In this document: positions 20,781-61,724 of the stretch, one piece after another | How the letters are laid out: the number at the start of each line of letters is the position of its first letter | Numbering within the stretch: position 1 is the stretch's first letter | Notes under the pieces: generated by a model | What the model was told of the DNA's origin: nothing | The model's database searches: none | What the model saw: the letters and a program-made list of their open reading frames with translations, nothing else | Position numbers and translations under genes: made by a program | Source: Chloranthus sessilifolius | Lineage: Eukaryota > Streptophyta > Magnoliopsida > Chloranthales > Chloranthaceae | Assembly (NCBI GenBank): GCA_021018995.1 | Contig: CM037598.1 | Span: forward strand, 77,518,671-77,582,670 | DNA: 64,000 bases | Direction: 5' to 3'

Positions 20781-22334
20781 ATCCTTTGTTCAAAGGAAGC
20801 GCACCGTCACGACGAACCCGCAAAGCCCACGATTGCATAATTATCTAACTATAGTTTACAAGGAATATCGAGCAGAGGGGGAGTGATGCTTACTTAATTT
20901 TTCTCACGATGGGACATTGAACCGCTTCTTTCCTCTTTTGTTTCTGTTGTGATGGGGCATGGTGGTGTGGTGATGGGACCTTTGGGAGGTTTGGCTCTTT
21001 GCTCTTTGTGATGGGTCATTGGTTATACCTTCCTTCTGTTTAATATGCGAGGTCACGTGGTGGGGCTTGATGGTTATGCAATGGGACAACTATGTTTATT
21101 TATTTCTTTGGCAAATCTTGGGTTATATGATGAGATCGGATTGTAGTTGCGTCGCAACGGGACTTGGCTTTAGCGTTATGATGCGGCCTAGCTTCGATGA
21201 AGGTGCGCTTATGGGTGTATGGATGGTGCATGCAAGACTACGCGATGAGGTAGTGTAGCGATGGGACTGTTATAAGCGTGCGATGGGACAAGGATGTTGG
21301 GAGGATAGGGGGTCTTACCTATTCGCAAGATCACACAACCACCCACATCATCAGAATTAGTTGACTTTGTCACCTCTTCGACTACTTTGCCGCTTGCTGA
21401 ATTTTTTTCAGGTGAACTCAAAGCCTTCTTGCTGGTGTTTCAGCCTCGTCTCTTTTACGTCAGGGATGATTTCTCATGCTGCTCTCTTTGTGAGAGACTT
21501 TAATGCTTGAGTATCATCATTGTCATCTTCGAAGTTGAGTCTTCCAGATCGTGGAGTGATCCCTGGTGGGAATATATTTGATCTCCAACTTGATGGAGGA
21601 GAGGGGTCTGTGGCTCATCCTGATCAATGCTTCTCTTGCTGGCAACAGGTAGATGGATCCATTTCGTTCTTTGTCGTGGCAGCTTTCAGCTCATATTCTA
21701 TTTGTCGTAAGTCTTGGTCGGCACTCCGATAGGATTTGAGCTTTGGGTGGAGTTGTGCTTTCTTAGTCGGTTGTCGTAATGGGACCGTGGGGGGATAGGC
21801 CTTCCTAGTTTTCGATTGTGGTGGGGCATTATTTATGTCACTCCTTAGTATGTGCTTTGTTCTCGTTGTGTCCTCATCGCTATGGGACATTGATGAACCT
21901 CCCCTTCTGGTCGCTTGCTATGATGATCAGTGCTGGGAATGTACTTACCTGAATGAGTGCAGAGACCTGCATGTAGAGGTGAATCCTTGCTCGAATATTC
22001 TTTGAAGAGGGGATTGATATCGACTATTGTCTTCCTTATCTCAAAGTAAGAAGGTTTGATTCATCCGGAGACCGGTTGTGACGATCGAGGGGCTTTTATC
22101 ACTGTCGTGGGTGCATGTCGCGACTGTACGAGGGACTATATCGCATTCGAGGCACATGTGTATTAGTACGCACTTTTTATGGGTTCCTTTCGGTCCCCGA
22201 AAAGAGTGTCCCAATTTAGTCCAAGTGGACTCTGGCAAAGGCGATGATGGAGTAATAAATTAGGAAATATTAAATGTTGAAATTAAAGAGGCGAATTCTA
22301 AATGAAGAATACCTGAAAAGATGTGATCGCCAGC
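20781..22334 (+). repeat. Host tract with dispersed GTGATGGGACATTGG words, left copy
   Basis: At least ten variants of GTGATGGGAC occur at irregular 40-150 base spacing (for example near 20907, 20949, 20971, 21008 and 21259). No coding is supported. Open frames here are chance products of the G-rich word. A diverged second copy lies at 50090-51270. The tract is cut at 22334 by element A and resumes at 32690. Confidence 0.6.
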
Positions 22335-23079
22335 TATTAGTCATTGGTTTTTCCCACTTTCTACCTCCTAACCTGGGCTTTACTAGAACCTAGAGCCATT
22401 TAATAACTGATGTTTAATGTGTTTTTGTAGCTAGGCAATAATATGCAGTCATCCATATAAAAGGTGCCAAGAGGAGGATTTAAAGTTAAGATAGTTGTTG
22501 TTGTTGGAATAAACAGCAGAAAGAGCTTTCAAGACAATATTTCGAGTAGTGTCAGCAGCTATATATTTGGGCAAATGAGAGCTTCAAAGATGCAACACAA
22601 AGCATTCCAAGCTTTCAGCTGCTGCATGTGATTCAACACATTTAAATAGCCCAAGTAGAACCAGCAATGCATGTGAAAACTGGCTGCATATTTCAGTAGT
22701 TGCACACTAGCTGGATGTACCCCATTTGCCTCAGCACTTTTGAGAAGAATAGCTTCAGCAAATGCACATTAAGGGCAGCCATTTGATTCACCTATGGTGT
22801 GCTTAAGCTAAAGAGGAGCTACAGCTGTGTGCACACTAAAGAAAACAGCAATGTGCACATTGCAGCAACCGCCTCAGCAACATATAAAGCTGTGTGCACA
22901 TTCATTTGGCTCACCATCTCCAAGCAGCTACAGTAAAGTACAAGTGAAGTGCATGAAAGCTTAGCAGTTTCAACAACTCCAAGACATACAGTTCAAGCAG
23001 TACATTGTTGGAATCCATCCTGTCAAATGAACTGAAGGGCTAAGAGGTGTTAAAACTGCACCTATCGAATGGATGCTGA

Positions 23080-29774: not shown

Positions 29775-29776
29775 TG

Positions 29777-32689
29777 TGTTAGTCACTAGTTTTTACCACT
29801 CTCAACCTCCTAACCTGGGCTTTACTAGAGCCTAAAGCCATTTAATAACTGATGTTTAATGTGATTTTGTAGCTAGGCAATAATATGCAGTCATCCATAT
29901 AAAAGGTGCCAAGAGGAGGATTTAAAGCTAAGATAGCCATTGTTGTTGGAATAAACAGCAGAAAGAGCTTTCAAGACAATATTTCCAGCAGTGTCAGCAG
30001 CTATATATTTGGGCAAATGAGAGCTTCAAAGATGCAGCACAAAGCAGTCCAAGCTTTCAGCTGGTGCATGTGATTCAGCACATTTAAATAGCCCAAGTTG
30101 AACCAGCAATGCATGTGAACACTAGCTGCATATTTCAGCAGTTGCACACTAGTTAGATGTACCCCATCTGCCTCAGCACTTTCAGAGCTTCAGCTTTGTG
30201 CACATTGAGAAGAATAGCTTCAGCAAATGCACATTAAGGGCAGCCATTTGATTCACCTATGGTGTGCTTAAGCTAAAGAGGAGCTACAGCTGTGTGCACA
30301 CTAAAGAAAACAGCAATGTGCACATTGCAGAAACCGCCTCAGCAACATATAAAGCTGTGTGCACATTCATTTGGCTCACCATCTCCAAGCAGCTACAGTA
30401 AAGTACAAGTGAAGTGCATGAAAGCTTAGCAGTTTCAACAACTCCAAGACATACAGTTCAAGCAGTACATTGTTGGAATCCATCATGTCAAATGAACTGA
30501 AGGGCTAAGAGGTGTTAAAACTGCACCTATCGAATGGATGCTGAAAAAGAATTCAACTAGTCGAGCAGTGCACTCTAATCCTGTCGAGTGCAAGTGCACT
30601 ACAGCCTCTCGAGTACATGGCTGCACTTTAAACCTCTCGAAGGATTTGATGTGGTGGTTTAGAACCTCTCGAATGACTGAGATGCACATGGCTGAAGCTG
30701 GTAACCAACCTATCGACTTGTAGATGCACACCTTCAGCAACCTGTCGAATAATTCAGCTCCCAAGCAATCCTCTCGAGTGGACCACAACAGTCTTCAGCA
30801 ACTATTCGAGCAACTTAAACTCCATTTCCCCCAACCTATCGAATGGACTGCTAGAACATGCTCAGAACCTCTCGAGCAGTACTTCTCCAAACAGCAACTT
30901 GTCGATTTGTTCACTCCATCCTCACGAAAAGGATTGTGCTGAAGCTGCTCAAGTAGACCTGCCACAACTCCAACCTCTCGAATTCTCAGCAAAAGCCTTA
31001 GAACCTCTCGAATTTGCACTCTAACCTCTCAAAGCTCGGGACCTAGCCGTCATCAGCTGTTATCAGTGACCATTTGTGAGCTATCTCAAGTTCTGAATGC
31101 AGCCAATGGATTGCTAGCTACTTTTAGGCATTCACAACAAAAAGGATAGGTACTGAGCTATCATATATTTCAAAATACTCGAAAGGTGCTGCATTTCAAC
31201 CTGACCCTCTCATTCTTCAAATATGTAGCAGCATTGGACTCCATTGGGTTCCAATTGGTTTTCAATAGGTGTGAGGGTTGTTTTGGTAAAAAATAGTAGA
31301 TAATAAACTGTGGGATATTTTTTGGGGTCCATCAATAATTACCAATGGTCGGCAAGGGCAGATTTGGGAACTCCAATATGCACATGGGACAGCTGACCAC
31401 ATGTAAACTATTTTTCGAACTAAATGGAGCAATTCTTGGTGGGAGCCAAACTACTTCAGCTGAGCATAACAGAATTGAGTTCTCTTCTCTCTAATTGGTC
31501 AATACCAATCACTTGGATCAGCATAAACTGAATTAAAATTTTCCTCTCTGATTGGCTGAAACTCAAGGCACTTGGATCAGCATAAACTGAATTAAAATTT
31601 TCCTCTCTGATTGGCTGAAACTCAAGGCACTTGGATCATGCATATGTATAAATACCCATCTGTTTTCTGTAATTCTTTAGCAAGGAATTACCAAGGAATA
31701 GCCTTAGTTTTTCTTAGCTCAATTTAGGTTTAATTTTAGTTTTTCTTTTCCCTTTTCTTTTCCCCCTTCTCTCTCTAATCCAGCCTGTTGGATTAGATCT
31801 AGGTAGTAGCTCAGATTTGATTTGTAATTGTAAATTCGGTATAGAGATGTGTAGATTGATGCACATACTGTAGATCTGAAAATAATTTATTATAAGTTGT
31901 TTTGAATCAATAAATTATTGGTTTTAAAGTTCATTTAAATATATAGATCTTTTGGTTCTATTAGATTCTCAATCGAATTTATGTATTTGGGAATGCCCAT
32001 TCATTTAACCTTTAGATCTTTTTATTGTCATATGATTTTCCTAGGTTGAATATTCCTGTGGATGCCTGAGCTTGTAGCCTTGCATCCACAACATCTGTAG
32101 TGATTTTATTGTTCTAATTAAAGCCTTTAGATTGAAGGAAACCCCTAGGATGATCTGTGACCATAGAAGTGGACAGATCATAGCCTTAAGATCAATTCAA
32201 ACCTCTTATTTAAATTGGATTCTTCTACCTTGCACTTGTGCTTGTAGCCAACTGAAGGACAGTTGCAAATCCATAAATCTTGATCTGTTTTGCAATATAA
32301 ATAGTCTCTAGCTATATATTTCTCCCCATTTTATATTTTATTTTACCATTCATCTCCATCATCTTGTAAATCTAGCTTTGTATTTCTGTTTTATAGTTTA
32401 GATCTAGTGACACTCCAAAAACTCTCTTCCTTTCCCTGTTTTCTTAGACTAGGTTAGAATTGCTAGATCTTTAGCAAATCTGGAGGTCTACTATCCAACC
32501 TACTAAGTTTTAAATCACTACTCCCTGTGGGACAAACTCTTACTTTTAAAACTTGCTACAAAAGGGCCCTATATCATGTAGGCCTGTATATTTTACAGTT
32601 CCTGTTCTCATCTCATCCACTTCTCTTTTTGATTAAATTTTTACCACTATGTTTTAATAAAATAATCAGCACTCCAAAATTTCTCAACA
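29777..32689 (+). repeat. Element A 3' LTR
   Basis: Starts TGTTAGTC and ends CTCAACA. A 59-bp segment is tandemly duplicated here only (31513-31571 and 31572-31630), partly explaining why it is longer than the 5' LTR. The CTCTCGA word array at 30535-31030 keeps more CpG than the 5' copy. Confidence 0.88.
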
Positions 32690-33742
32690 CTAGCTACAGA
32701 TATTTATCGACGCTGCAACACATCACTGATCACCCTTTAAGGGGAGCGGGGGCTTGCAGGTTGAAGTCCTTTACTGAATCATCCGTTGACGAATGTCAGT
32801 AGCTGTGGGTTGCCTTTAGTCTAGCTGGTTTGGTTTTCCTATTTCTGTTGGGATTTTAATTAACTTGGTCTCCTAATCCTACTGAGAGTCTGAAAAAGGT
32901 CTCCTAATCCTATTAGAAGTCTAATTGATCTAGTCTCCTAATTCTACTAGGAGTCTAATTAATTTAAATATCATAATCTTACTAAGAATTAATTAAATCT
33001 CATAATCCTACTAGAAGTCTAATTAATTTAAATGTCCTAATTTTAATTAAAATTTGAATTAATTAGAAAAAAGGGGTTTGGGCCCACTATGCTAAGGAGG
33101 ATCGGCCCCATTCTCGGGTACCCTCCATAAGCTTCCTTGGGCAAATCGTGTGGCTGAGATTAAAGCAAATTAAATTTTGAGTTATAAGATAGTATTTTTT
33201 TTTTATTTTTAAAGTCAATAATTTTGGATTATAATTATGAATTAAATTTTGAAACTAGAAAATAAGAACTGAACTATAAATCGGGATTTTTAAAAATCTT
33301 AAATTAAGAAAATTAAGACTAAAATTTAAAATCTAAGGACTGAATTTGGAACCGAAATCAGATAATCAGACCGTATGATTAACGACTGGTTCTAAAAAAT
33401 AAGAACTAGAACCAGAGATTAATAATAGGACTGGAGATTGAGATTTTAGAATAAAATTTAGGTTTAGGGTTGGGGATTAGGCAGTCTGATTAAGGACAGG
33501 TCCCAGATTTTAAGAACTGGAACCAGGTATTAAAAATTATGATATAAAAAGAGGGTGCTACGGTCTAAAATTAAAAATTTAATGCTAATAGTTAAAATGG
33601 AAAAAATCTAAATCTAAGAATTAAAAACTAGGATAAAAAACTAAAAGCTAAAAGGAAAATTTTACCTAAGGCCGGGGCTGCAGAGAGGAATCTCCAAATT
33701 CGAAGCCTAGATGCGGAGGACTTGAAAATTCGATTGCTAGAT
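32690..33742 (+). other. Host tract between elements A and B
   Basis: Non-coding. A repeat of CTCCTAATCCTACTAGGAG-like units lies at 32868-33043, then AT-rich DNA to 33660. The segment rejoins 20781-22334 on the left and 48124 onward on the right once A and B are removed. Confidence 0.6.
32868..33043. repeat. ~33-bp tandem units with CTCCTA...TAGGAG stems
   Basis: Five units of GTCTCCTAATCCTACTAGGAG followed by TCTAATTAATTTAAAT-like spacers. In the best one CTCCTA (32935-32940) pairs with TAGGAG (32948-32953) around a 7-base loop. The others are partly decayed. Confidence 0.65.
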
Positions 33743-33996
33743 TGTTGACAAGTGAAAACTACCATTTTTCACCCCTAAACTTAAGTCTTGATAGACCTTT
33801 GAGAGAACTAAATAAGTGTTTTAAGTGCCTATGTTGCAGCTAACAATAAAGACAGGCTTAACCATAAAAGCAGCTTAAAAGTGCCAAAAAGATGACAATC
33901 CATGTCAGTCCAAAGGAAGGAAGTGAAGAAACAACCTCATTAGCTGTTGAAAGGTCTAAAGTGAAGAGGCAAAGACCTGTAAGAGAAGCAGGGAAC

Positions 33997-34622: not shown

Positions 34623-34632
34623 CTATAAATAG
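34623..34632 (+). promoter_or_regulatory. TATA box of element B 5' LTR
   Basis: CTATAAATAG, a consensus plant TATA box. It is repeated at 47138-47147 in the 3' LTR. Confidence 0.7.
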
Positions 34633-35605: not shown

Positions 35606-35623
35606 TGGCGCCGTTGCCGGGGA
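35606..35623 (+). promoter_or_regulatory. Primer-binding site of element B (tRNA-Asp type)
   Basis: TGGCGCCGTTGCCGGGGA, 6 bases after the LTR end. This is the standard Athila-type minus-strand primer site. Confidence 0.88.
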
Positions 35624-35797
35624 ATTTGTTCTAAAATAGATAGACCTAAGTTTTCATTTTAATTTTTATCAGTACTAAACTATTCTATTGTTTATACTTG
35701 TGCAGTTATTCATATTCAGGTTTTTGAAGAAGGGAAACTACTTAAAGGAATTCTGAAGGTTTGCTGTGAATAATCAGATTTTTTTGTTCTGAGTTGT

Positions 35798-37345
35798 ATG
35801 TTTGGTAGGAGGACTCTCAGCCCTGAGATTCTCCCATTGAATTTAGAAGTTGAAAGGCTACTACAAACCAAACAAACAACACAGAATTCTGCTACTATGG
35901 GTGAAGAACCTCGACTTTTGAGGGGTTACTTTGCACCTGGTGCTTATAATTCCCCCTTTTGCATTCAATTTCCTACTGTTGAAGGAAGTTATGAGATCAA
36001 GTCATCAACTATCCAAATGCTTCCTTCCTTCCATGGGTTGAGTAAGGAAGATCCATACAAACATGTGGATGAATTATTGGCTCTTTGCACCACATTCAAC
36101 ATAGCTGGACTTGGTCCAGAAGCAACCAAGCTTAGGCTCTTTCCTTTTTCATTAAAGGATAAAGCTAGAGCATGGTTATCTATGTTAGCACCAAACAGTA
36201 TCACTTCTTGGAATGATTTGCAATGTCAATTTTTAGCCAAATATTTCCCAATGTCTAAAACAAGCCAATTGAGACAAAGTATCATTTCCTTCTCCCAAAA
36301 CTCAACTGAAACTTTCCGTGAAGCATGGGAAAGATTCAAGGAACTTTTAAGGCAATGTCCTCATCATCAAATTCCTAGATGGCAGCTAGTTCAAAGCTTC
36401 TATCAAGGAATTAATCAAAAAGGTAAAAATATGGTGGATGCCTCCTGTGGAGGCACTTACTTGCAAAAAACAGTTGAAGAGGTTTGGGACTTATTTGAAG
36501 TGATTGGTGAAAACTCAACTCAGTAGGAATCTCTGTCAAGAGAAATTGAAAATCCTGTTAGGTTGAACAATCATCAATCCACCAAAGGGAAGATCTATGA
36601 GGTGAATGAGTTGGAAAGAAAGATGGACAATCTAACCACAAAGTTTGATAGATTGATGGACTCACTTAAAAATCCAAATGTTTCAAGAGTAGAGGAGGCA
36701 TGTCTGATATGTCAGTCGCCTACTCATTCACTTGACCAATGTCCTGCTACATCACAGTTCCCAGATTGAATGGTGGAACAAGCTCATGCTGCTCAATCAT
36801 TTGGACAGATGCAGTCAAATGAATATCCATGGAGAGCACACCCCAATTTGAGGTGGAACCAAGGGAATTACCAATCCCAACAACAGCAACAACCAAAAAA
36901 TCAAATGCCTTTCAAAGCACCTTATCGCAGAATTTTTATGTCAAACCAAACTTTCTGACCCATTCCACAACAACATGCGTGATCTACCCCAGTTCAAACC
37001 CCCTCCAGGTCCCTTTCTTTTGAAGATCAAGTCCTAAATTCACTCCAGAATTTAGGATCTTTAACTCAAACTGTGAATTTTCACAGCCAGAGCATAAAGA
37101 AGATTGAAGAAACATTGGGACAGCTTTCAAATACTTTGGCAAAAAGAGAGGAAGGAAATTTACCCAGCCAACCTTTGAACAATCCCAAAGGACAGTTCAT
37201 GGTTGGAGAAGCTTCTAATTCACATGAAGAAGTAAAAACTGTTACCACTTTGAGAAGTGGAAAAATGATAGATAACAAAGTGGGTACTGAAGAAGAAAGA
37301 AATGAGGAAGAGGATAAAGATATGCAGCAAGAAGAGCAAAGATAG
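35798..37345 (+). pseudogene. Element B gag
   Basis: A frame beginning MFGRRTLSPEILPLNLEVER holds a well-kept gag domain (35798-36526): 'LSKEDPYKHVDELLALC', 'RLFPFSLKDKARAWLSML', 'ERFKELLRQCPHHQIPRWQL' and 'MVDASCGGTYL'. After a TAG at 36524 the same frame continues to an intact CCHC zinc knuckle (C-LI-C-QSPT-H-SLDQ-C near 36699-36740). Gln-rich DNA follows, then 'SQSIKKIEETLGQLSNTLAK' and the Athila-typical 'TLRSGK' (about 37247). Further stops lie at 36767, 36956 and 37343. Gag builds the particle and the zinc knuckle binds RNA. The start is the first ATG after the primer site in frame, and the same start word is present in element A. Confidence 0.9.
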
Positions 37346-37477
37346 TGATAGCAAGTAAGGTTTGATGTACCTCAGAAAAACCAAAAAAATGAAAAACAGA
37401 AAATTCAAAAAACTTCTGAAAATACTTCTAAAGTTGTAGATGAAAGATTAGTTCCTCATTTACCATTTCCTCATGCA

Positions 37478-38047
37478 ATGAAATCCGTATCCCCTTTTGA
37501 TAAAGGGAACACAAAAATAGATGACATGATGAAGACTTTTAAGCAAGTCAAGATAAATTTACCTTTGCTTGAAGCAATCAAACAAATTTCAGCATATGCA
37601 AAATTTTTGAAAGATGTTTGCACTCACAAAAGACAGTCTAGGATACAGTTGTCCAAGAAGGTCTTTGCTGTGGAAAGAATTAACCAGGTGTTATCCATTG
37701 CTACACCTCCTAAACTTCAAAATCCTGGAATCCCCACAATCCCTTGCATTATTGGGGAACACACCATTGAAAAGGCTTTATTAGATCTGGGTGCTAGTGT
37801 CAACCTACTTCCATATTTTGTATATGAGAAACTAGGTTTGGGAGAATTAAAACCCACTCATGTGGTGTTACAACTAGCAGACAGATCTGAAAGAAAACCA
37901 GTAGGGATGATTGAAGATGTATTGGTGGGAGTAGATAAATTCTTCTATCATGCTGATTTTCTAGTTTTGGATATGGAACCAACCAAAAGCAAAACTTCCA
38001 TCCTCACATCATTTGGGAAGACCATTCACAGCTACAAGAAATGCTAG
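37478..38047 (+). pseudogene. Element B aspartic protease
   Basis: It continues in the gag frame. The spacer 'KINLPLLEAIKQISAYAKFL' is typical of the Athila gag-protease linker. The protease core has 'ALLDLGASVNLLP' with the catalytic Asp codon at 37784-37786 (DLGAS, the usual Athila form of DTG/DSG), then 'VVLQLADRSERKPVG' and 'FLVLDME'. It would cleave the polyprotein. The frame ends in a TAG at 38045. Since gag, protease and RT share one frame here, the ancestral element encoded one polyprotein. Confidence 0.88.
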
Positions 38048-38164
38048 CATTCAATGCAGGTCTGGTATTATGGAAGTCTCATTTGGAAACATGTAGGTAA
38101 GATTAAATGGTTATAATGCCAAATTTCTCAATTCAGCTCTGAAGAATGTTTTCATGTTGATCTA

Positions 38165-39415
38165 TTGGATGAACTTGTGGAAGGGACTTTACAACAATTT
38201 CTGCAGGGTGAAGACTTCACCACAGATGTTAAAGATGCTTGGGGATATGCTGAAAATGAAGCAAGTTGTATCTCAAATTCTGAGGAAATAAATGTTGTGC
38301 AAGGAACTCTTAATCAATTAGCAAGTTTCTCTTCTTGGAAACCTGCTACTCTCCCCCTTCCACAAACGTCTAAGGTACCTTTGTTACCTTCTTTTCTCAG
38401 CTCACCTGATTTAGAACTAAAGCAGTTGCCAGAAAATTTGAATTATGTGTTCTTAGGTAATCATAAATCATTGCCTGCCATTATTTCTTCCTTTTTCACA
38501 AAGGAGCAAGAGGAAGAGCTGTTGATAGTCTTGAAAGAACACAAAAGGGCAATTGGTTGGACTATTGCTGATTTAGGAGGAATCAGTCCAGCTGTTTGCA
38601 TGCACAAAATCCACTTGGAAGAAGATGCAAAGCCTTCTAGGGAAATGCAAAGGAGGTTGAACCCTCATATGCAAGAAGTGGTCATGAAAGAGGTTGTTAA
38701 GTTGCTGGATGCAGGGGTCATCTACCCCATTTCAGATTCAGCTTGGGTGGCACCTACACAGGTGGTACCTAAGAAATCTGGAATCACTGTTGTAACCTCA
38801 GATTCTGGTGAGCTCATGTCAACCAGACAAACAACTGGATGGAGAGTCTGTATTGACTACAGAAAATTAAATGCACTGACCAGAAAAGACCATTTCCCCC
38901 TCCCATTCATTGATCAGATCTTAGATAAGCTAGCAGGAAAAGCTTATTACTGTTTTCTTGATGGTTACTCTGGTTACAACCAGATTCCTGTGTACCCACA
39001 AGATCAGGAAAAGACCACATTCACTTGCCCTTTTGGCACTTTTGCCTATAGGAGAATGCCTTTTGGTCTTTGTAATGCTCCTGCTACCTTCCAAAGATGC
39101 ATGTATGCCATTTTTTCTGATATGATTGACCAATTTATGGAAATTTTTATGGATGATTTTTCAATCTATGGCGACAGTTTTTCCCAGTGTTTACACCATC
39201 TCAAATTGGTACTACAAAGATGTGAAGAAACCAATCTGGTTTTGAGCTGGGAAAAGAGCCATTTCATGGTCACTCAGGGCATTGTCCTTGGCCATGTTAT
39301 TTCCCACAAAGGCATTGAGGTGGACAAAGCAAAAATTGAGTTAATTGCACATTTACCACCTCCCAAAACTGTTAAACAAATCAGAAGTCTTTTAGGACAT
39401 CTTTGGATTTTCTGA
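38165..39415 (+). pseudogene. Element B reverse transcriptase
   Basis: 416 codons in the gag-protease frame. Canonical gypsy RT blocks follow in order: 'EVVKLLDAGVIYPISDSAWV', 'WRVCIDYRKLNALTRKDHFP', 'FLDGYSGYNQIPV', 'FGTFAYRRMPFGLCNAPATF', and active site FMDDFS (catalytic Asp pair near 39152-39157), then 'LGHVISHKGIEVDKAKIELI'. All catalytic Asp residues are present. The TGA at 39413 falls in the tether ('LLGHLWIF'). A frameshift lies between 39415 and 39583. The enzyme copies element RNA into DNA. Confidence 0.93.
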
Positions 39416-39935
39416 AGGTTCATCAAGGACTTCAGTAAAATAACCAAACCTCTTTGTCATCTACTGTGCCAAGATGCCCCTTTTGTTTTCAATAATGAAT
39501 GCATGAAGGCTTTTGAATTCCTAAAAAGTCATCGATTTCAGCCCAATATTGCGCTCCAGATTATTCATTACCTTTTGAACTGATGTGTGATGCATCAGAT
39601 TATGCTTTGGGAGCTGTCCTTGGACAGAGAAAAGATAAGTTGCCTCATGTCATAGCTTATGCCAGTAGATCAATGATTGATGCACAGTTTAATTACACAA
39701 CAACTGAGAAAGAGCTGCTGGCAATTGTTTTTGCTTTAGAAAAATTCAGGTCATATGTCTTGGGTTCACAAATAGTGGTGTTCACTGACCACTCTGCCTT
39801 GAAATACCTTCTGTCTAAGAAGGACACCAAACCAAGATTAATCAGGTGGATTCTCCTATTACAGGAATTTGATCTACAGATTAAAGATAAAAAGGGGGTG
39901 GAAAATGTGGTGGCTGATCACCTCTCCAGAATTTT
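39416..39935 (+). pseudogene. Element B RNase H
   Basis: After a tether ('RFIKDFSKITKPLCHLL') a shifted frame from 39583 encodes 'MCDASDYALGAVLGQRKDKL', 'YASRSMIDAQFNYTTTEKEL', 'VFTDHSALKYLLSKKD' and 'KKGVENVVADHLSRI', the complete Ty3/gypsy RNase H with its acidic residues. It removes RNA from the hybrid during replication. The frameshift separates it from RT. Confidence 0.9.
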
Positions 39936-41435
39936 AACTGCTGAGATTGATAGGTTGCCTATCAATGAATCTTTTCCTGATGAGCAACTTTTTGCCATTA
40001 GTATACACACTCCTTGGTTTGCAAACATAGTCAACTTTTTGGCTACTGGAAGAATTCCTCAACATTGGAATAGAATGGATAAAGATCTTTTCTTCTCAAA
40101 GGTTAAACACTTCATCTGGGAGGATCCTTATCTGTTTAAGAGTTGTGCAGATCAAATAATAAGGAAATGTGTCCCTGACCAAGAATTTCATAGAATACTT
40201 TCTATGTGTCATGAACAGGCCTGTGGAGGTCATTTTAGTGGGAACAAAACGGCTGCAAAAGTTTTGCAGTGTGGATTTTATTGGCCTACACTTTTCAAGG
40301 ATCCCTGTAGCATTGTAAGTCCTGCCAAAACTGCCAGAAATTAGGCAGCATTTCCAAGAGGAACTCAATGCCTTTACAGCCTATTTTGGTAGTCGAGTTG
40401 TTTGATGTTTGGGGGATAGATTTCATGGGTCCCTTTCCTCCTTCCAATGGGAATAACTTCATTCTAGTAGCTGTGGATTATGTATCCAAATGGATTGAAG
40501 CCACAGCTACTAAAACAAATGATCACAAAGTGGTTTTGAAATTTCTTAAGGATCACATTTTTTCCAGATTTGGTTTTCCCAGAGCCATTATCAGTGATGG
40601 GGGAAGCCATTTTTGTAATAGACATTTTGAAACTTTGTTGAAGAAATACTCTGTGACTCATAGAGTAGCCACTCCATATCATCCACAAACCAGTGGATAA
40701 GTGGAGATTTCCAATAGAGAAATCAAACATATTTTGAAAAAGACTGTGAAGAAGGACAGAAAGGATTGGTCCTTTAAGGTGAATGATGCATTGTGGGCAT
40801 ATAGGACAGCCTATAAAACCCCAATTGGTATGTCCCCATTTAGGTTGGTCTATGGCAAAGCATGCCATTTACCAGTAGAGTTAGAATATAAAGCTTTTTG
40901 GGCCATTAAAACATTGAACATGGATCTAACTACTGCTGGTAATCACAGGAAACTGCAACTTGCTGAGTTAGAAGAGCTACGAATGGATGCATACACAAAT
41001 TCAAGATTGTATAAAGAGAAAGTCAAAACTTTTCATGATAAAAATTTATTGAGAAAAGAGTTCACAGCTGGTTCTAAGGTATGGTTATTTAACTCAAAGC
41101 TCAAGTTTTTCCCAGGAAAACTGAGATCCAGATGGGAAGGGCCATACACTGTCATTAAGGCAGCCCCTTCAGGAGCTGTTGACATCATTGATCCAAGTAA
41201 TGGAAGAATCATAAAGATAAATGGCCAGAGGCTCAAACCATGCATTGCCCAGCTATCATCACGAATCTCCAAAAATCTGATGGTAGAAAACTGTACATTA
41301 TGTTTGTATATCATAGTTTGTGCTTATTTTCTCTGTTTCTGCTTTTATCTCTTTTCGCATAGTTTAAACATGCTTAAAGTTCAGTCGCAAAGTAATAATT
41401 CGCTTTTCGCAAAGTCCAATTTGCTTTTCGAATAG
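39936..41435 (+). pseudogene. Element B integrase
   Basis: The zinc-binding N-terminus spans 'CHEQACGGHFSGNKTAAKVL' and, in another frame, '[13 protein letters not shown]' (near 40310-40350), so a second frameshift lies between. The core has 'GIDFMGPF' (first Asp), '[11 protein letters not shown]' (second Asp) and '[12 protein letters not shown]' (Glu). A TAA at 40698 replaces the usual Gln just before the Glu. The C-terminus has '[20 protein letters not shown]', '[20 protein letters not shown]' and 'INGQRLKPC'. The frame then runs on to 41435 through DNA made of TTTTCGCAAAG words. No chromodomain is present, as expected for Athila. Confidence 0.9.
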
Positions 41436-41580
41436 ACTCTGGAGCTGTAATAAACTGCTCGAAAGCAAAGATGTGCTTTTCGAATAGTTGTTTCTGGAAA
41501 CATTTTCTTTTCGAAAAGAGAGTTCTGAAGCTAATTCCTTTGCGAAATAATGTTTCTGAAGCTGTTAACTTGTCGAATGG
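41355..41580. repeat. Internal CTTTTCGAA/TTTGCGAAA word array of element B
   Basis: At least nine words (TTTTCGCATAG, CAGTCGCAAAG, TTCGCTTTTCGCAAAG, CTTTTCGAATAG twice, CTCGAAAGC, CTTTTCGAAAAG, TTTGCGAAATA, TTGTCGAATGG) lie at and after the pol stop. It is the same word family as the LTR array of this element, 7 kb away. Confidence 0.75.
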
Positions 41581-41944
41581 TACTGATGCCATTCACAATT
41601 GTAAAAAGGTCTCTTTTGGAACTTTTCAAAAACTTAAAGGCGCTTTGTGATATTAACTTTGAGTATATTTAACCCCTTTCGAAGTTGGGGTTTCATTTCA
41701 AACTCTTTCTGCAAAGCGACTCTTCACTGCTACCCTACTTCGCTCTCTCCTTGCACGAGTTAACAAGTTTACTACCCTTTTGTAACTGATTGTGTAGATC
41801 ATTTGCATTTTCAAAGAAGGATTTCAGCTTGTAATCTGGGGATTTCGCAGCAAACAACTGCTCAAACATAAACCCTAGATCTCGGTATTTCTCTACCCAT
41901 TCTCTCTCGGTTATCGCTTAGTAATTTGATTCAGGTCAAGATCT
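41581..41944 (+). other. Element B spacer between pol and 3' ORF
   Basis: Non-coding, with no supported feature. It may act as leader for the 3' ORF, for example in a spliced or separately promoted transcript, but no signal decides this. Confidence 0.4.
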
Positions 41945-44420
41945 ATGTTGGGCATTTTTATACATCAATCTAGAATGGGAAAAGCAGAGAAATCATTGGC
42001 TGCAATGTTCCCCAAATCCTCTGCTAGGAAAGTGAGCAAATCGACCCCAAAAGCAAAAGGAAAAGCCAAAACTTCAGCTAAACGAAAACTTTCAATGGAT
42101 AAGGCAGACAGGGAGGAGAAAGGAAAGAAAATTAGACATGAGGAACCCACCCCTGCTGCTGCTAGCCCTGAGCCTAAGCTTACTCCTCTGCCCATTCATT
42201 TGGTCCTACCAAATCCCTTCATTGAAGCTCGGTTAATATCGATGGTAGACGAAACTTTTTTCGTCACCAAACCAGAGTGCTTGCCATCCTTAAGATACCT
42301 TAGAGAGGCTTCACTAAGCAATATCCTTACCCCCTTGCCAGAGAAAATTTACCCAAGAATGGTGAAGTTATGGTACCAAAACCTAGTCAAGGTCGCTGAA
42401 AAAGATGCTGATGTCCCTACCCTTGTCATTTTTATTGATGATTGCGATCTTACTGTGACATTTGAAGACATAGGAAATGCTTTAGGGATACCATTCCAAT
42501 TTGATCCCTCTGGTCCTTTGGCTGCTCCAGAAAAGGCGTCTTTTAGAGAGATGCCCATTTAACCCAAGGTATTGTGGGCACTAGGCAGTCCATCATGAGA
42601 AGAGACCTTGCCCCCAATTTCTATTGATGGATTCCATTTTAAAGGCTTTTTATGTCATCAAGCACACCAAGAGAGGAGAACACCAATTTTAGAGGCCCTC
42701 TTTCATTTCTCCAAGGCGTTTTTCAATGCCCCTATGTTAATTTTTTGAAGTTATGGCGATGTTGCATCAAGTCAAGAAAGAGCGTAAGATATGGCCTACC
42801 ATTTGGCAAATTGATCACGACCTCCTCGAGCCAAATTCAACATTGATAGTGAGGAGCCATTTGAAGTCATTACCCTCACAATTTTGGGAAAAAGGCTTGG
42901 ACTACAAGCCGTGCTATCTTGAGAAGGATGAGAGGCTGCACTGCACATGCCCTCGCTGCACGAGAACTGCGGTTGTGAGTGAGCAGAACCCACCCTTGCA
43001 GATGAGCTGCACACTGAAGCCACCCTGCTGAATTTGAGCCTACACTGAGCCTACCTGCCATGTTGCAGATCCAAATTTGTCGAATCAACTTTGCCCCGAT
43101 CCAATTCGACATGTGGTGACCAGCTCTTTAGTTGCACCCATTTTAGATGACACCTCCCTCCCTTTGGTGACCAGCTCTTCAGCTGCACATACTCTGGAGG
43201 AAGCTGGCCTTACACCCTACTCCCCGACTCAAGCCCCTGCACTTTCACCAATCCCAGCTGTCCCATCTCCCACACCTTCCATCATTCCAATTGTGGATTC
43301 CCCTCTACACCAACCATACTCACACCACCAATTTCTCCCACCAATGCCTGTGTTTTAGAGGAATTAGCTCTGATTTTATTGCCCCATCTCCTGCACTCTC
43401 CGCTCCAAAGCCCTCACATTCCCCTACTAATTCAACCCCACACACGAGGTCTCCCATTCACCGAACACAGCCCTTCACTCTGAGGCCTACTCTTCTTTAT
43501 TGGGTTCTATTTTTGAAACCATGGAACTGGACCCCACCCCTATACCTCCTCCTCCCTTCACCCACTTTCCAACCTCTCCCTTTACACCATTGCACCTCCA
43601 CCTCCACCTCGCTTGTCCCTCTCTACTATGCCCACCTCTCCCACACTGCATCCATTTCCCAAATCCTTACCTACCTCCAATCCATCCAAGCCCAACTTCA
43701 AATCAACACAGACAATCACCAGAACCATGGAACTGCCCATACCTTAGCTTCCACATCCCAAACAACCACCATTACCCTTGTACCTATTTTTTCTTTGTGC
43801 CACCCAAAGCGGATCCAGAGGTAATATTGGTTGACCCGCCCACCCCACCACTACTACCCATGCAACACATACTCAAACAAGTCCCTTTAGTTCCATCCCT
43901 CCACCACTCTCCATTTACCCATGCCACTGCACCTGCCCCCCTTCTAGCCACTTCTCCCTCCCACACTGGGCCACCTTTAGTCCCCTACCATTCCATTCCC
44001 CTCCCCCGATACGCCACCCTCATCAAAGCCATGGAAAATAATCCTTATATCCGCAGAGATGTTCAAAAGGGGCTAGCTGATTTGCAAGCTTACATCCACA
44101 CCCCCTATGAAAACCAAATCCGGAAGTTAGAGATCTTTATGCAATTTGAAAGAGATAAAATGAGGGACCTGCTGGGTCAAACATTTCAGCTGGTGAGGAC
44201 TGAGCAACACAAGGTATCCATGTTGCAAGCCCAACTGGATCAAGAAAAATTGAAGACCACTAGCCTCAGCAAACACCTTGGCCTCACCAAAAAGATCAAA
44301 TCTGAGGAGTATACTGAGCTACAAAACACCATTCCGGAGAAAGCTCAATCAAGTTCGGACTCCAACACTGACTCTAGCTTTGATTCAGCGGTGACTCGAT
44401 CAAGCCACCGAACAACCTAA
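41945..44420 (+). pseudogene. Element B 3' ORF (Athila-type, non-pol)
   Basis: After the start at 41945 (or Met at 41975) comes a strongly basic, Lys/Ser-rich N-terminus resembling a nuclear localisation region (about residues 10-65). A folded domain follows ('LVLPNPFIEARLISMVDETF', 'YPRMVKLWYQNLVKVAEKDA', 'VTFEDIGNALGIPFQFDPSG'), reminiscent of the 'putative plant transposon protein' domain found in Athila 3' ORFs. The frame is lost at 42562 and resumes at 42753 ('VKKERKIWPTIWQIDHDLLE'), then runs with stops through a long Pro/Ser/His-rich linker (43077-43950). It ends with a charged, probable coiled coil ('LVRTEQHKVSMLQAQLDQEK' near 44200-44255). I see no signal peptide or membrane segment, so an envelope role is not supported. 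Confidence 0.6.
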
Positions 44421-46209
44421 GGATACAAATTTTGACCCCAGTTATTAGCTCTCATTGTACTTTTTGTGTTATAAAGTTGTAATAGAAAATTCTATTTTGT
44501 GTATACTACTGTGCATTTCTATTTGTCTTCTTGCCATCATTACTTTTGTTGTTTTTCTTTCTTGCATATATTTTTCCTCTGTTTTGGACCAGTGTGGACC
44601 CTGCTCCCCTTTGCTTTGGGGGTATGGCAGGTATGCCAATAAAATAAGTAAGTTAATGCTTGCTACAGCTTATGATCAGTAGAACTTTTGAAAATGAAGT
44701 CATTTCACACCTGTTGTTTTGAAAAATGAGGAAGTTAAAACTTTTTAAATTGAATTTATACTGTAATTCTAAAGACTTTCATGAAGTAAATGTCAGGAAA
44801 TTTCCAAAAGAAAATTGATGTTTTAGTAAACCTAAAATGAAGGAAAACAGTGAAGATATACCTCAAGAAGTTGATATAAAACCACACCCAGTGAGGTTTG
44901 GGCCTGAAATGTATTCTTTGGAGGTATGCTTTGGCAATCATTTCTGCTTTTGGGACTATGTAAATCTGCTTACTTACACTAGAAGTTACACATATCCAAA
45001 TCGAAATAATTTGATAGCACTCATGATATTAAAGACATGATGTAAGGCCTCCTTTTGGACAGTTTGAACCTTACAAAGCCCCACCTTTTGAAACTGCCCT
45101 TGATACACACCATTTGAGCTAAATAAATCTATGATTCCTTTGAAATCTCCCCCAATAAACCTCATCAACCTCATTTGGCCTAACCCTACCCCGAGAAGGC
45201 AGAAGATAAAGGGAAGGAAGCTGAGGAAGGAGAATTGAGTAACAATTTAATAGCAAAAGAAGGATAAAAGTTGAAGGCAATGATGAAACAGCAGAGGGAA
45301 TGTGGCACGCAGTCAATGCTAATTCGAAAAAGAAAAGAAAAATATTTGAGCAAAACAAAAGAAAGAAGGCATTTTCATTGGAAGTTTGAAAAAGAAAGAG
45401 AAAAAGATGGCCACTTTGGCTCTGGAAATTCAAAAGAAGAAGATGAAACTATGCTGAAGAAGAGTGGGTTTGTATATAACCTCCTGACCTTGACTGACTT
45501 CTCAAATATGAACACCATTCCAACCCTTTTGAGAAATTTCACCCATAAGCCGCAATAAAACCCAAGTAAAAGTCCTTACTGATCAATGATGGATTGAGCT
45601 ATCACATGGAGATAAGAATTTGTGTAATTTATGGTGAAAGGAGCAGTGAATTTATAACTAAAAGCAATGCCTATGCTCACCTACGGTCCTATTTGAGGAC
45701 TAGAATCGCTCTTGAGTGTGAAATAGTACAACCCTCTCATTTGCTTATTGAGTGAAAATCCTGGTGAGAATTGGGTTTAAAATCAACTGATTAGGGCAAC
45801 ATCGAAGCTGGATTCCTAAATCAAAGGCTAGCTGTTCGTTAATTTTCCCTGTAAATGGCCTCTGACATAAATCGACTGAGTAGTAACAAGAATTACTGCA
45901 GAATTTTAGTTTTAAACTGATATCTTTCTTGAAAAACCTTCTTACAAAATAACTGATGCAGGTGCGAATAATCAATTGAGGAAAGTGGTCGCAATGTAAT
46001 CGCAGTGATCTTAACTAACTTATTGAAGAAGTTTGTGGGTACCTTCACTAAAAACCCTCAGGAGACTTCACTCCTCCACTAGGGATCACCTAGGGGTTTA
46101 AAAGGCTTGTTGCATATGCTAAATGCAACTGTGCTCCCTACAAAAGTGGCCCTTTACTTTGTTTTTTTTTTTTTTTATTCTTTTCTTTGCTCAGGGACTA
46201 GCAAAGCTT
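44421..46209 (+). other. Element B 3' non-coding region
   Basis: It matches element A 28130-29763 in order. It holds a polypurine-like CTTTGGGGGTATGGCAGG at 44614-44631 and the shared block 'AAACCCTCAGGAGACTTCAC' just upstream of the LTR. Open frames on both strands here are not conserved with A. Confidence 0.65.
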
Positions 46210-46220
46210 AGGTTTGGGGG
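46210..46220 (+). promoter_or_regulatory. Polypurine tract of element B
   Basis: AGGTTTGGGGG, two bases before the 3' LTR. Plus-strand DNA synthesis would be primed here. Confidence 0.8.
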
Positions 46221-46222
46221 TG

Positions 46223-48123
46223 TGTTGACAAGTGAAAAATACCATTTTTCACCCCTAAACTTAAGTCTTGATAGACCTTTGAGAGAACTAAATAAGTGTT
46301 TTAAGTGCCTATGTTGCAGCTAACAATAAAGACAGGCTTAACCATAAAAGCAGCTTAAAAGTGCCAAAAAGATGACAATCCATGTCAGTCCAAAGGAAGG
46401 AAGTGAAGAAACAACCTCATCAGTTGTTGAAAGGTCTAAAGTGAAGAGGCAAAGACCTGTAAGAGAAGCAGGGAACAATTCGAATAGAGAAATGCACTAC
46501 AGAGTTTTTTTCGCAAAGAACCTGCACTTTTCGTAAAGAACCTTGAACTCTGCGGAAAGGACTAAAACTTCAGGCTTAGCTTTCGAAGAGCATCTGAACT
46601 CCTCGAAGAGAAGATTGAACTTTGCGAAAATGAGAAAACACAATTCGAAGAGAAGATTGAACTTTGCGAAAAGGAGAAAACACAATTCGAAGAGAAGATT
46701 GAACTTTGCGAAAAGGAGAAAACACAATTCGAAGAGAAGATTAAACATTGCGAAAAGAGCTTCAGAAGTCACAGCACTCTGCGAAAAGGTATTCTGGAGA
46801 TTCACAGCTTTAACAAGGGTAATTCAGTAATCTGTTGCACGTGTCCCAATGCATTTTAAAACCTAGGGACATTCTAGAGGGTTCTAAGCATGAAGCGAAG
46901 GAATATTCCACCCCAGTGAGCACCTAGAGAGGGAATAACTTAGCGGGAACTTCTAGAAACTCTAAACAAACTTTCAAAATGCATAACAGAATTGATGCCT
47001 TTTCACTGATCATGAACCAGGATCGAGGAATTCTAATTGGCGAAGCATCCGGATCCCCATGCTCGACTACCATTGGTCAATACAGATCTGAGAACCTTTG
47101 ATTGGTTGATACACATCTGAGCTGGACCTGGGGAAAGCTATAAATAGACGAAGCATTTGCCCAATTAGGGCATCCAGATTTTGAGTTTCATTTCTAATCT
47201 CCCATTCCCCAGCCAGACAGCTTGTCTGCAATCCTTGTAATAGCCTACTTTGTACATGCATTTGAGAGCTGTGAGATACTGTAACCCAAAGAAGAGTTTG
47301 CATCCAAGACCGCAAACCGAGAGCCGTGTCGCGTGCTCGTAATTGTAATGGTGGATTTTAAAAGGTTGTCAGAACTATGCATTCTCCATTTGACTCATGT
47401 CAAGGGTTCCCTCTGATCTCCTCAGTACATTAGACTCCTTTAGATTCATTGTTTTGCATGCAATTTCCCTTGATTCATTAATCCTGTGAGAATTAGTGTT
47501 GGTAACCTAGTCTCTTATAGCATTTGTAGTGATGTTTCTTGTTCTGAATTGAGGATTTGGATTAAAGACTATTGGATGGTTTGTGGCCATTAAAGTGGAC
47601 AGACCATAGCCATAAGTGTAAGCCTAATCCTTGAATTAGATTTATCTCTCTTACATCTGTGCTTGTAGCCAGATGAAGATTGGATCACCTCTGTTGAGCT
47701 GCAGTTATTCTCATTAGATTTCAAAGACCAAATCAGATTTAGATATTACTTCTCCATCTTTGTTTCAATCACCCCCCCAACTCGGATCTGGATCATTTAG
47801 TTTAAATTTTTCTTTGTTTGTAGTTAGTTAAACGTGACAAATTCAAACCTCTCATCTTATCAGTTTTCTAGATAGGATAAGAAGCCAGATCTGGTAGCTC
47901 AGATCTGGAGGTTTATCTTACATTTTAGACAAATTCTCTGTGGACGATCTTTCACTCACTTTTAAAACTTGCTACAATTGGCCCTGATCTTGCAGGCTAA
48001 TTCTCTTCTAACTGTGCTGATATTTCTTTATTTGTTTATATAGTCTAGAGCCACTGTAATTTAGCAGCTATAAATCTGTTTTCAAAACTCACATAAATCA
48101 AGCACACTAAGAAGTAAACAACA
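46223..48123 (+). repeat. Element B 3' LTR
   Basis: Matches the 5' LTR closely. It has four instead of three 42-bp units in the TTTGCGAAAAG array (46600-46760), which accounts for most of its extra length. Small deletions occur near 47000-47130. Confidence 0.93.
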
Positions 48124-48960
48124 TAGATGCCCTCCTTTTTTGGGACGAGGTAAAAAAGTCTATTTATAGGTTTTTCCTAATTACGCGCCTTGTGGGGTGC
48201 ACTTAATTTTTAATTGCACGCCCTGTTTCGGGCGTTTAATTAAATTGCGCATCGATTATCTGGCACTTATTAACTTTGAGTCGGTCACCAACTCAGTGAG
48301 CGACCGACTGATTGGCTCAGCCAGGCTTCCTATTTCTAATCACGTTAGGACTAATTGCCCGCTTTCTTTGGAGTGCACAATCTAATTAAGCGCTTCATTC
48401 AAGGTGCTTAATCATGGAATTTTGGCGATCGAGGACTGTGAGACTAGGCCAGGCATAGACCAATTAAGCGCCTGTGATAGGGCGCTCAATCCGATTGCGC
48501 ATGCTGATTAGGGCATGCAATTGAGTCTCGAGGAGGTTTGAAGAAAGGAGGATTGGTCTTAAAAGGGGTTGATTGCACATTTGTGAGTAGATTTTAGACG
48601 TGTAATTAGTGATTGTCTGAGTCCGGGTCGGGTCTGAAATGCCAGACTATTGTTTCAGTCGGCATTTCGACTATATACTATTGTTTCAGTATATAGTGTC
48701 CCTATGTTGAGATCTGAGCCACAGAGCTATTGTTTCAGCATGTGTTCAGCCATGTACTATTGTTTCAGTGCATGGTTCCCAATTTAGGGTTAGGGGGTCT
48801 GGGCCACAGAGCTATTATTTCAACCTGTGTTCAGTCATATACTATTGTTTCAGTATATGGTTCCCATGTTAGGGTTTCGAAACTCTCAGAGAAGGTAAGT
48901 CCTTTTCAAAGAGTCATAGTCAAGGTCAAAGGTTGATCGAATAGATTTGTATACTCCGAG
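48124..48960. repeat. Host tract: two consecutive families of stem-loops
   Basis: Family 1 (48180-48525) has a conserved stem type ATTAAGCGCC/GGCGCTTAAT and changing loops: 48212-48223 with 48230-48241, 48385-48393 with 48404-48412, 48463-48472 with 48481-48490, and 48494-48504 with 48513-48521. A GTCGGTC/GACCGAC stem lies at 48280-48286 and 48302-48308. Family 2 (48636-48860) has a constant loop TATTGTTTCA, once TATTATTTCA, six times, with arms that change together. No coding is seen. Confidence 0.8.
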
Positions 48961-50090
48961 AGGGCAAAATGGGGGTGTATACAGATGCCCCTCTTTGGCG
49001 CGCTCTTGTGACGTAAGAATGCGTCGAAGAAGTAGACACCCCTCATTCTAGGTGTCTTCTCGTTTCTCTTGAGAAATCGCAAATGTGAACTAGGGACGCT
49101 GACATGACATGCTTGGCTTTCTTATCTATCAGTGCAAGCTAAAATGGAGCATTCGGGGGCCTAGTGGTAGCTGTCAAAAGGCGTATTCCATGCCGTGGAT
49201 GCAAGTGATCCCGTCACATATCATGACCCGCTGTCATAGACAATCGACGATGGAAGTTTGCGTATCCTAATCCGCAGGTGTAAGGGGCATCCCATATCGT
49301 GGCGTGACCTGCTATGAATGACAGTCAAACGAAAAGGAGAATCATCATATCCTAATCTGTGGGTGAAACGGGCATCCCGCTGCATATCGCGATCTGCTGC
49401 AAGGGGCAGTCAAATAGAGGGATATGACGCAATCGAGGAACCGGGGGGCATCATACAAATGTCCATAAATAAGGTCCAGAGATCGATAATAAGATACAAT
49501 ATCATGTAATGTCGAAGGCTTTCTCAAGTCATGTCAGATTGGGCACGTCATTGCTCACACCAATGCATGTCAGGCATTCCTTTTCTAATAGGCATTTGTA
49601 AGCTCTTAGATTAAATATACTCATTGCTCGATTTCCCAAGGGGAATGGCTGGTTTGGATAAGTGGTGAATGAGATGAATTTTGGCAGGTAAGAGGTCTCT
49701 TTGTTTATTATTATTTTGGTTTCTTTTTTTTATTGTTTTATTTTTTTTGTTTTGGTTTTTTTCTTTTTTTTGGAAGTAAGGGGTTTTGAAAATTCGGAAA
49801 TTTTAACTTAAGATCAATTCAGTGATAAATCTTCAAAAAGCGTGGCTTTCGAGGCGTCACTGAGCAGATCCATTGGTACGGGATTTATAGACCCGACTGT
49901 TTATGTGGTTGTCAAGACGACACTTGGCATGCCGGATACTTCGTCTAACCTTCTCGATGAATACTGATGATTGTCTCTTATGGGGGGACTATAGTGGTTT
50001 GTGAGTCGAGGGAGATGGGTTTTGAAAACATTTTAACTTAATCATAGCTAACTATATATATCAGAAGCAACATCGAGTAAAAGAGATGGT
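48961..50090. other. Host tract: ~84-bp degenerate repeats and a T-rich run
   Basis: Repeated blocks containing 'TATCCTAATCYGYRGGTG' and 'GGGCATCCC...ATATCG' occur at about 49263-49347 and 49348-49430, with a weaker relative near 49170-49250. A long T-rich tract (about 49690-49770) follows. No gene is supported. Confidence 0.5.
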
Positions 50091-60690: not shown

Positions 60691-60989
60691 CTTTCATGAA
60701 TCTAAGCTGAAAACAAAATATCAAGGCATGCAAATCAAATACACTTTCAAAATTCAAGCTCGAGCATATCATGGAATCTATGAATCGAATCAAAATGAGA
60801 TTGGGCATTGAGTTTTCCCTACCTCGGCCTCAAGGTTGTGCAAAGCAAGCAAAGGGGCGGTCTTTATCGATGATGTCCAGCTCACCAAGACCTACATATG
60901 TTCATGAATCATGTGTCAAGGTTAATCGACCAAGACGAATCGAAGTTATTCGAGTTTCATCAAAAGAAATCAAGAACAAGCCAAACTGG

Positions 60990-61160
60990 CAAATTCGCGT
61001 GAGTGATTCCAAATTCGCTCGAGCGAGTCCCAATGACACACATATTCTCGCTCGAGCGAGTTGCACCAGAGAAATTTAGCCTGATTTCTAGGCTAAATTC
61101 GCTCGAGTAAATGTTTTAGAATTTCTTCTCGCTCGAGCAATTTCTAATTAGCTAGAGCGG
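60990..61160. repeat. TTCGCTCGAGCGAGT array 1 in solo LTR 2
   Basis: Six to seven words built on CGCTCGAGCGAG, mostly perfect palindromes around CTCGAG, separated by 15-40 bases. Confidence 0.78.
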
Positions 61161-61724
61161 ATTCACTCGACTCTACAACTTTTGGGGTTCTTCTTCCCCA
61201 AACCAAACTCTTCTAAAAACTTCCAAAAATCATTTCTTAAGGGTCCTAACCAAAATCTAACCAAACTTAAACATATTTCACAACTCAAATCTCAAACCTT
61301 ACCTTTCTATGCTCCGTGTAAGAAGACCAAGATCATTGCGAATCACAAAGAATCAATGCCTAAACTTCTCATTCCAACGACGACTCAACTTTCTTGAAGA
61401 TCTTTAACCATGCATGCCAAGCCTAAGATTGCCAAGATCGGAAGGAGTGACACCAAGGTCTGTCGTTCATTTGATGCTTGAACCGCTAATCTTGTGGTGT
61501 CAAAATTGACGGTTTTCTCTCTGCAAAAGAAGAAAAAGTTTGCGAGAAAATCAACGGCGACAATCTCACCAAGAGCAAAGTTGAGAAGAAAAGATCAAAG
61601 GTTTAGATCTTCAAGTAGAAGGAAAAATGGAGCTAGGGTTTCTTATCCCAAAATATCTCAAAAAGCAAACGGAATGAAAATAAATGGATAAGAATGGGTG
61701 AGAAGCCCATATATAGCATAAAAG

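Follow-up and report, generated by a model that had tools for sequence, protein, structure and literature searches.

A tandem array of stem-loops with a shared loop, probably a constrained cis-element, in the long terminal repeats of a Chloranthus sessilifolius retrotransposon

Overview

Six stem-loops carrying a common loop lie side by side in the window (the whole 64,000-nucleotide stretch of C. sessilifolius DNA analysed here), and their array is part of the long terminal repeat (LTR) of a gag-encoding retrotransposon present at many places in the genome. Judging from the comparison of related copies, the LTR probably has in this array a cis-element under constraint. The explanation that we favor, and whose chances we put at about even, is that of a constrained, tandemly amplified cis-element in U3, most likely made up of repeated recognition sites for transcription.

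Six stem-loops of four types

The preliminary description of this DNA reported six stem-loop units with a constant loop, and the six loops are present in the sequence at the positions it gave (48648, 48679, 48728, 48758, 48813 and 48843), as are the complementary arms in the form in which it quoted them. The loop at 48813 is the variant TATTATTTCA, and the other five are exact copies of TATTGTTTCA, a sequence with five matches in the window against 0.33 expected; none of 100 shuffled sequences reached five. When the array was folded against shuffled controls, as had been proposed, it lay far beyond the shuffles as RNA on both strands and as DNA on the minus strand. For 48636-48860, z was -5.9 for the plus strand as RNA, -8.5 for the minus strand as RNA and -7.5 for the minus strand as DNA, with none of 200 shuffles folding equally well in each case. 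In a ranking of 285 segments of 225 bases by the summed z of both strands (16 shuffles per segment), the array segment took first place in the window.

The six loops thus stand, but they do not represent six independent units. Since the third and fourth units and the fifth and sixth are copies within an 85-bp tandem duplication, the array consists of four hairpin types (A, B, C and D), listed here with a further hairpin, E:

48636..48668, minus strand: hairpin A, GAAATGCC(A)GAC - TATTGTTTCA - GTCGGCATTTC, with one bulged A
48670..48697, minus strand: hairpin B, ACTATATAC - TATTGTTTCA - GTATATAGT, 9 pairs
48714..48749, minus strand: hairpin C, first copy, with a bulged A and, in the window copy, one mismatch
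48750..48775, minus strand: hairpin D1, CCATGTAC - loop - GTGCATGG
48799..48834, minus strand: hairpin C, second copy, with the loop TATTATTTCA
48835..48860, minus strand: hairpin D2, TCATATAC - loop - GTATATGG
48713..48876, no strand: 85-bp tandem duplication holding C-D1 and C-D2 (Tandem Repeats Finder, 87% matches; repeat family D8)
48209..48244, minus strand: hairpin E, inverted repeat I1 with 15-nt arms, 87% complementary, near the TATA candidate

The central motif common to the four types is CTATTGTTTCAG, which reads CTGAAACAATAG on the sense strand. The two units that had been described as pairing only partly, at 48728 and 48813, are both of type C; the first of them has the mismatch noted above, and the commonest form of this type in other loci, CACAG-A-GC / GC-CTGTG, has seven pairs and one bulged A. 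As for the constancy of the loop, it is common to most hairpins but not absolute, hairpin B of the L041-like subfamily having a different loop on the same stem. On the sense strand, GAAACA is common to the loop of hairpin E and the array loop, and an E-like hairpin was recorded in 13 of 41 loci, several of the 41 not being long enough at that place.

The array is located within an LTR

The genome to which the window belongs (2.17 Gb, 32 contigs) was searched with a 251-bp stretch of the array, which gave 79 matches at the 40 scored candidates of 4790 first-look candidates; these 40 main loci are the best of the 4790 by likeness to the array, which thus looks more conserved in them than it actually is. 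First-look candidate places of the family number in the thousands both in this search and in one made with adjacent sequence (4790 and 4919, respectively, with 40 scored in each). The related loci have in common the array and a surrounding block of homology with sharp edges, which lie about 90-150 bp past the array at one end and roughly 2 kb from it at the other. Read on the minus strand, the block begins with TGTAGACACCCCC or similar (TGTA...), with variants, in 27 of 28 printed flanks, and in 27 of 28 loci this LTR-edge motif comes after the last hairpin; the 3' end is of the CACCAACA type, with variants, in 15 printed ends. The block is therefore a long repeat with TG...CA ends and sharp homology edges, as an LTR should be. 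Behind its 3' end, a stretch resembling a primer-binding site (PBS) is found in 7 of 15 ends, with TGG usually 2-3 bases behind the LTR end (the PBS is placed 0-5 bases behind the LTR in the accessible part of PMC6317226), and a purine-rich, polypurine-like tract lies beyond the 5' edge in 8 of 28 loci, so that the PBS and the polypurine tract that mark an LTR retrotransposon are both represented. In addition, three loci (L021, L026 and L027) encode gag (PF03732) behind the PBS, on the minus strand. Together, the sharp edges, the PBS-like and purine stretches and the minus-strand gag identify the block as an LTR with the minus strand as its sense strand. Its length is 2.5-2.85 kb in the 7 of 12 copies that were properly bounded, the ends having been misplaced for L022, L025 and L017 and not found for L028 and L011.

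The earlier remark that no named plant repeat has this design takes on a different meaning in these surroundings, which are the LTR of a gag-encoding retrotransposon and not an unnamed free-standing plant repeat; a free-standing repeat or satellite was rejected because the array sits inside LTRs. In the window, the LTR is in three pieces, cut by two nested insertions:

48134..48983, minus strand: LTR 5' (U3-side) piece, with the LTR start at 48983 (TGTATACACCCCC on the minus strand)
48984..48996, minus strand: polypurine-tract-like stretch adjoining the LTR (AAAGAGGGGCATC on the minus strand)
32688..33742, minus strand: LTR middle piece, from BLAST of related LTR loci against the window, parted off by a nested element
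22163..22336, minus strand: LTR 3' end piece (L026 2129-2301 matches 22163-22335, 93%), parted off by another nested element

The matches of L007, L014, L019 and L028 (4 of the 10 loci compared) end at 48983, and the interior of the array-bearing element runs from 48984 to at least 51118, as given by the match of L017. The insertion at 33743-48133 is itself an LTR element, with repeats 12.5 kb apart that are 92-100% alike in the listed families and with gag, RT and integrase matches on the plus strand; it entered the LTR near the inferred transcription start. The repeats of the other nested element that splits the LTR, at 22337-32687, are spaced about 7.4-7.5 kb. At 63865-64000 lies the left end of another LTR of the same superfamily; there is a single A-B-C-D set there, as in L041, and in both places the B hairpin is without the usual loop. 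This stretch was rejected as the sister LTR of the window's element, the adjoining PBS-like stretch being absent and the two longest LTR matches of L041 being 70-71% alike.

The array-bearing element is probably a high-copy Tat/Ogre-like Ty3/gypsy retrotransposon. The sole gag/pol domain shown in the element itself is gag (PF03732); RVT_3 and RNase H domains in L026 were rejected as part of it, because they lie beyond an LTR end without a PBS and so probably belong to another element. Two same-strand LTR pairs spaced 21.4 and 21.7 kb (one 91% alike over 452 bases, the other 83% over 411) make elements of about 24 kb likely, and other same-strand pairs are 19-65 kb apart. Very large size is a mark of the Tat/Ogre group, and it is gag and size, set against the traits of that group, that suggest the assignment.

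A TATA candidate downstream of the array

A candidate TATA box was read in the sequence of the window copy:

48161..48168, minus strand: TATA box candidate, TATAAATA (sense)

It lies about 480 bp from the A loop, with the array about 470-690 bp upstream of it. Twelve of 41 loci were too short for this comparison; among the 29 that were long enough, the window copy included, a TATA motif was found 434-511 bp from the A loop in 20 and was missing there in 9, against a background of 219 of 851 windows of 240 bp. From the TATA motif downstream of the array we infer that the array is placed in U3. A promoter beside the LTR start, where a TATA-like motif occurs at +31 to +33 in L009, L016 and L021, was set aside, the motif near +900 to +1060 being found in more copies. 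In the LTR of L012, structure is densest between the LTR start and about the TATA motif, some windows within this stretch being unstructured; a few windows in other parts of that LTR are structured as well.

Two other short features were noted in this piece of the LTR. An inverted repeat at 48924-48938, GGTCAA-AGG-TTGATC, close to the LTR start, resembles paired W-box cores; its second arm reads TTGACC in many copies. At 48893-48900, AGGTAAGT resembles a splice donor on the strand antisense to the element and is present in many copies.

Copy number, order and subfamilies

The 40 loci contain 450 hairpins (67 of type A, 67 of B, 159 of C and 157 of D), with 6-35 hairpins per locus and a few loci having two arrays. 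The order is A-B-C-D-(C-D)n or repeated A-B-C-D-C-D blocks of about 248 bp, and some arrays are irregular. One locus (L018) has 35 hairpins in A-B-C-D-C-D blocks of about 248 bp and looks like an early step to a satellite. The bulged A is kept in type A (66 of 66 units) and type C (96% of 153), and D occurs in two forms: the first D behind A-B mostly has G-C at pair 4, and the D hairpins that come later mostly have A-T there. Hairpins with more than two loop mismatches in the 40-locus set, or more than three in the array-blind set described below, were not counted, and decayed units are under-represented.

A second subfamily (L041 and its relatives, 8 of 10 read) has one A-B-C-D set with a different B loop. 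L041 was met by position, and the single-set loci were found by likeness to its stretch holding the array, the spacers and some flank. Twenty LTRs were also fetched by adjacent U3 sequence, without regard to the array, and all 20 carry it. These array-blind loci are 20 of the 40 scored from 4919 candidates, namely the best new ones in order, except that the last was picked outside this order, being a possible sister LTR.

The arms do not co-vary among homologous copies

From arms that differ between units and stay complementary, the preliminary description had concluded that there was paired change, and it named homologous copies with independently varying arms as a refutation. Independent change of the arms is what was found among homologous copies. 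Over the 450 hairpins of the 40 loci, with D pair -4/+4 excluded, there are 54 double changes against 48.9 expected from independence, and 33 Watson-Crick double changes against 28.4. In the array-blind set of 20 loci, where a usable A-B-C-D module was present in 15 and the same pair was excluded, the corresponding values are 17 against 16.7 and 9 against 10.1; compensated changes beyond independence were found among homologues in neither set. D pair -4/+4, with 57 double changes against 29.8 expected, tracks position in the array, and its excess reflects one old D1/D2 split. Many of the stem changes are one-sided transitions, as expected of decaying copies, and at A pair -5/+4 only 25 of 67 units have Watson-Crick bases. 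Strand-specific selection was seen neither in folding nor in G-U-compatible changes: over the 40 loci the mean z is -5.56 for the antisense and -5.58 for the sense strand (p 0.56), z is below -2 in 39 of 40 loci on the sense and 40 of 40 on the antisense strand, and one-sided changes that pair as G-U number 289 on the plus strand only and 307 on the sense strand only (cells of the 40-locus table).

Between hairpin types, five of the seven differing pairs are compensated (A/C 3 of 3, B/D2 1 of 2 and D2/D1 1 of 2), and the other two are wobbles. With the bulges removed, the three left-arm changes between A and C coincide with the three right-arm changes and all restore pairing. This gives a P of 0.03 if only transitions are allowed and 0.001 for any base, with type A given A-T at pair 4 (15 of 67 units) where the commonest state is an unpaired C with T (22 of 67); by hand count, entering C at A pair 4 raises the 0.03 to about 0.11. 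For B/D2 and for D2/D1 alike, P is about 0.22 or 0.07. Pairing of the arms was probably maintained in older evolution, as far as modest statistics on these few pairs go, whereas it is not in recent copies. Complementary arms in a single copy therefore do not establish co-variation, since homologous copies decay arm by arm.

Stems and loops change less than spacers between two subfamilies

The proposal of selection for structure draws support from slower stem and loop change between subfamilies and, modestly, from the compensated pairs between types; co-variation among homologues does not bear it out. The commonest bases of 32 multi-set loci (of 33, L024 being left out) were compared with those of 8 single-set loci (of 10, L047 and L049 being left out because the script missed their array). 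Stems differ at 4 of 83 sites, a class that includes 4 bulge or unpaired arm sites, spacers at 14 of 37 and the flank at 75 of 376; the loops of A, C and D differ at 4 of 30 sites and the B loop at 2 of 9. Fisher tests, which take sites as independent and so yield flattered p values, give 1.1e-5 for stem versus spacer, 2.7e-4 for stem versus flank and 0.02 for loop versus spacer. By the commonest letters, no stem pair changed on both sides between the two subfamilies.

Within the first set, variation at A/T sites is 0.026 in loops and 0.035 in stems, as against 0.117 in spacers and 0.120 in the flank, a pattern not repeated at G/C sites (loops 0.229, stems 0.109, spacers 0.098 and flank 0.212). 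The 15 array-blind modules point in the same direction at A/T sites, not significantly (p 0.08 and 0.20), and at their G/C sites the reduction was not seen (p 0.97 and 0.26).

Possible functions of the array

In the array, the four inverted-repeat types, in the order A-B-C-D, have a common central motif; tandem amplification has multiplied the C-D pair and larger blocks, and in the mobile lineages spacers have changed more than stems and loops. In the favored explanation, the units would most likely be repeated recognition sites that help to drive or adjust transcription starting at the TATA candidate, about 470-690 bp downstream; from the pairing of the arms, they may be recognised as an inverted repeat or a hairpin. 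A transcriptional role is considered most likely because of the inferred U3 place and the tandem form, as in the U3 repeats of other elements, and the equal folding of both strands suits a site at the level of DNA. Several observations nevertheless count against it. A site recognised in double-stranded form has, by itself, no need of complementary arms in four different sequences, G/C sites are without sign of constraint, and the B loop differs in the second subfamily; the TATA motif is missing in place in 9 of 29 loci, some copies have the rival TATA-like motif at +31, and other structured windows occur elsewhere in the L012 LTR.

An alternative is an element acting in RNA, in which hairpins in the transcript, U3 being its 3' end, would show the loop CTGAAACAATAG many times to Gag or to a host RNA-binding protein in packaging, processing, export or strand transfer. 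The sense strand folds strongly (z -8.5 in the window, below -2 in 39 of 40 loci), the loop core recurs in hairpin E and is thus borne by five different stems, 5 of 7 differing pairs between types are compensated, and the B stem was retained where the B loop changed. We hold such a role to be possible but rather unlikely, given that folding of the antisense strand is just as good (z below -2 in 40 of 40) and that G-U-only changes are similar in number (289 versus 307), that arm letters barely differ between subfamilies, with no two-sided pair change, and that homologous arms vary independently. Folding on both strands would also fit small-RNA precursors cut by Dicer-like enzymes; this we regard as highly improbable, since the stems have only 7-12 pairs, known precursors having longer ones, and Rfam gave no match above its curated score in 48000-50000. 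The independence of homologous arms and the absence of strand preference are, on the other hand, what would be expected if the hairpins were a functionless by-product of mutation, in which a switch of template in reverse transcription or replication gave copies of a 12-base motif their complementary arms, and tandem duplication raised the number of these copies. Hairpin stems can be both created and repaired by template switching (accessible part of PMC8794818), and tandem repeats, common in Tat elements, are ascribed in the available text of PMC7004042 to illegitimate recombination or abnormal strand transfer. An origin of this kind is unlikely to account for the array, however: stems and loops have changed less between subfamilies than spacers and flank, the bulged A persists in A (66 of 66) and C (96% of 153) where re-copying of an arm should have removed it, and the D1/D2 difference, as the arms read, is unlike a single re-copying of one arm. 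Returning to a functional array, a further reading, which we consider rather unlikely, is that the LTR of this lineage presents a single loop in multivalent form, on several unrelated stems that are each conserved. A protein of the element or the host would then recognise the folded state, as RNA or as single-stranded DNA, and tandem amplification would adjust how many hairpins are shown.

Relation to known systems

In 48000-50000, Rfam gave one match up to E 1, outside the array and with 21 bits against a cut-off of 100, and a known RNA family was therefore rejected. A two-loop pattern had 0 matches in viral and prokaryotic collections, and among the titles and abstract openings of the literature no array of this design appeared, which is not proof of absence.

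Tandem repeats are often found in retroviral U3, can act in the regulation of transcription and are present in Tnt1 (PMC3601003, accessible part). Like those of retroviruses and tobacco Tnt1, the repeats described here are short, variable in copy number and located upstream of the TATA motif in the LTR; unlike them, they are inverted repeats with a shared loop and type-specific stems, and they change more slowly than the rest of U3 examined. U3 tandem repeats are already known; the unusual point here is the build of the single repeat, a stem-loop in which the loop is shared and the stem is specific to the type. In the same part of PMC3601003, U3 is described as much less conserved apart from the TATA box, and that of the Tnt1 family is highly diverse according to the available text of PMC1838419; short stem-loops that change more slowly than their surroundings therefore lie within an LTR part described as much less conserved. 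Should the arms matter, a plant retrotransposon would have in this array an unusual control element, both structured and variable in copy number. With the satellite-seeding repeats of Tat/Ogre elements, as presented in the available part of PMC7004042, it has in common tandem amplification in plant Ty3/gypsy elements and higher-order units, here of about 248 bp; those arrays are hypervariable and lie in the 3' untranslated region downstream of gag-pol, whereas this one lies inside the LTR and has slowly changing units. The stem-loops in the long R regions of retroviral LTRs likewise have both sides of the stem conserved within the LTR, but the present array is in U3 by the TATA motif, and a loop shared by many stems is not among the features described for R in the accessible part of PMC3601003.

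Two further palindrome arrays were observed in the window. At 8524-9230, the palindrome TTGATCGATCAA recurs at a spacing of about 20 bp, with 8 perfect and 2 variant copies in 8950-9260, and 9001-9225 within this array is the third-best folding segment of the 285. The second-best is 60976-61200, where palindromes of the form CTCGCTCGAGCGAG and variants are repeated; on the plus strand, 60960-61210 folds with a z of -7.2.
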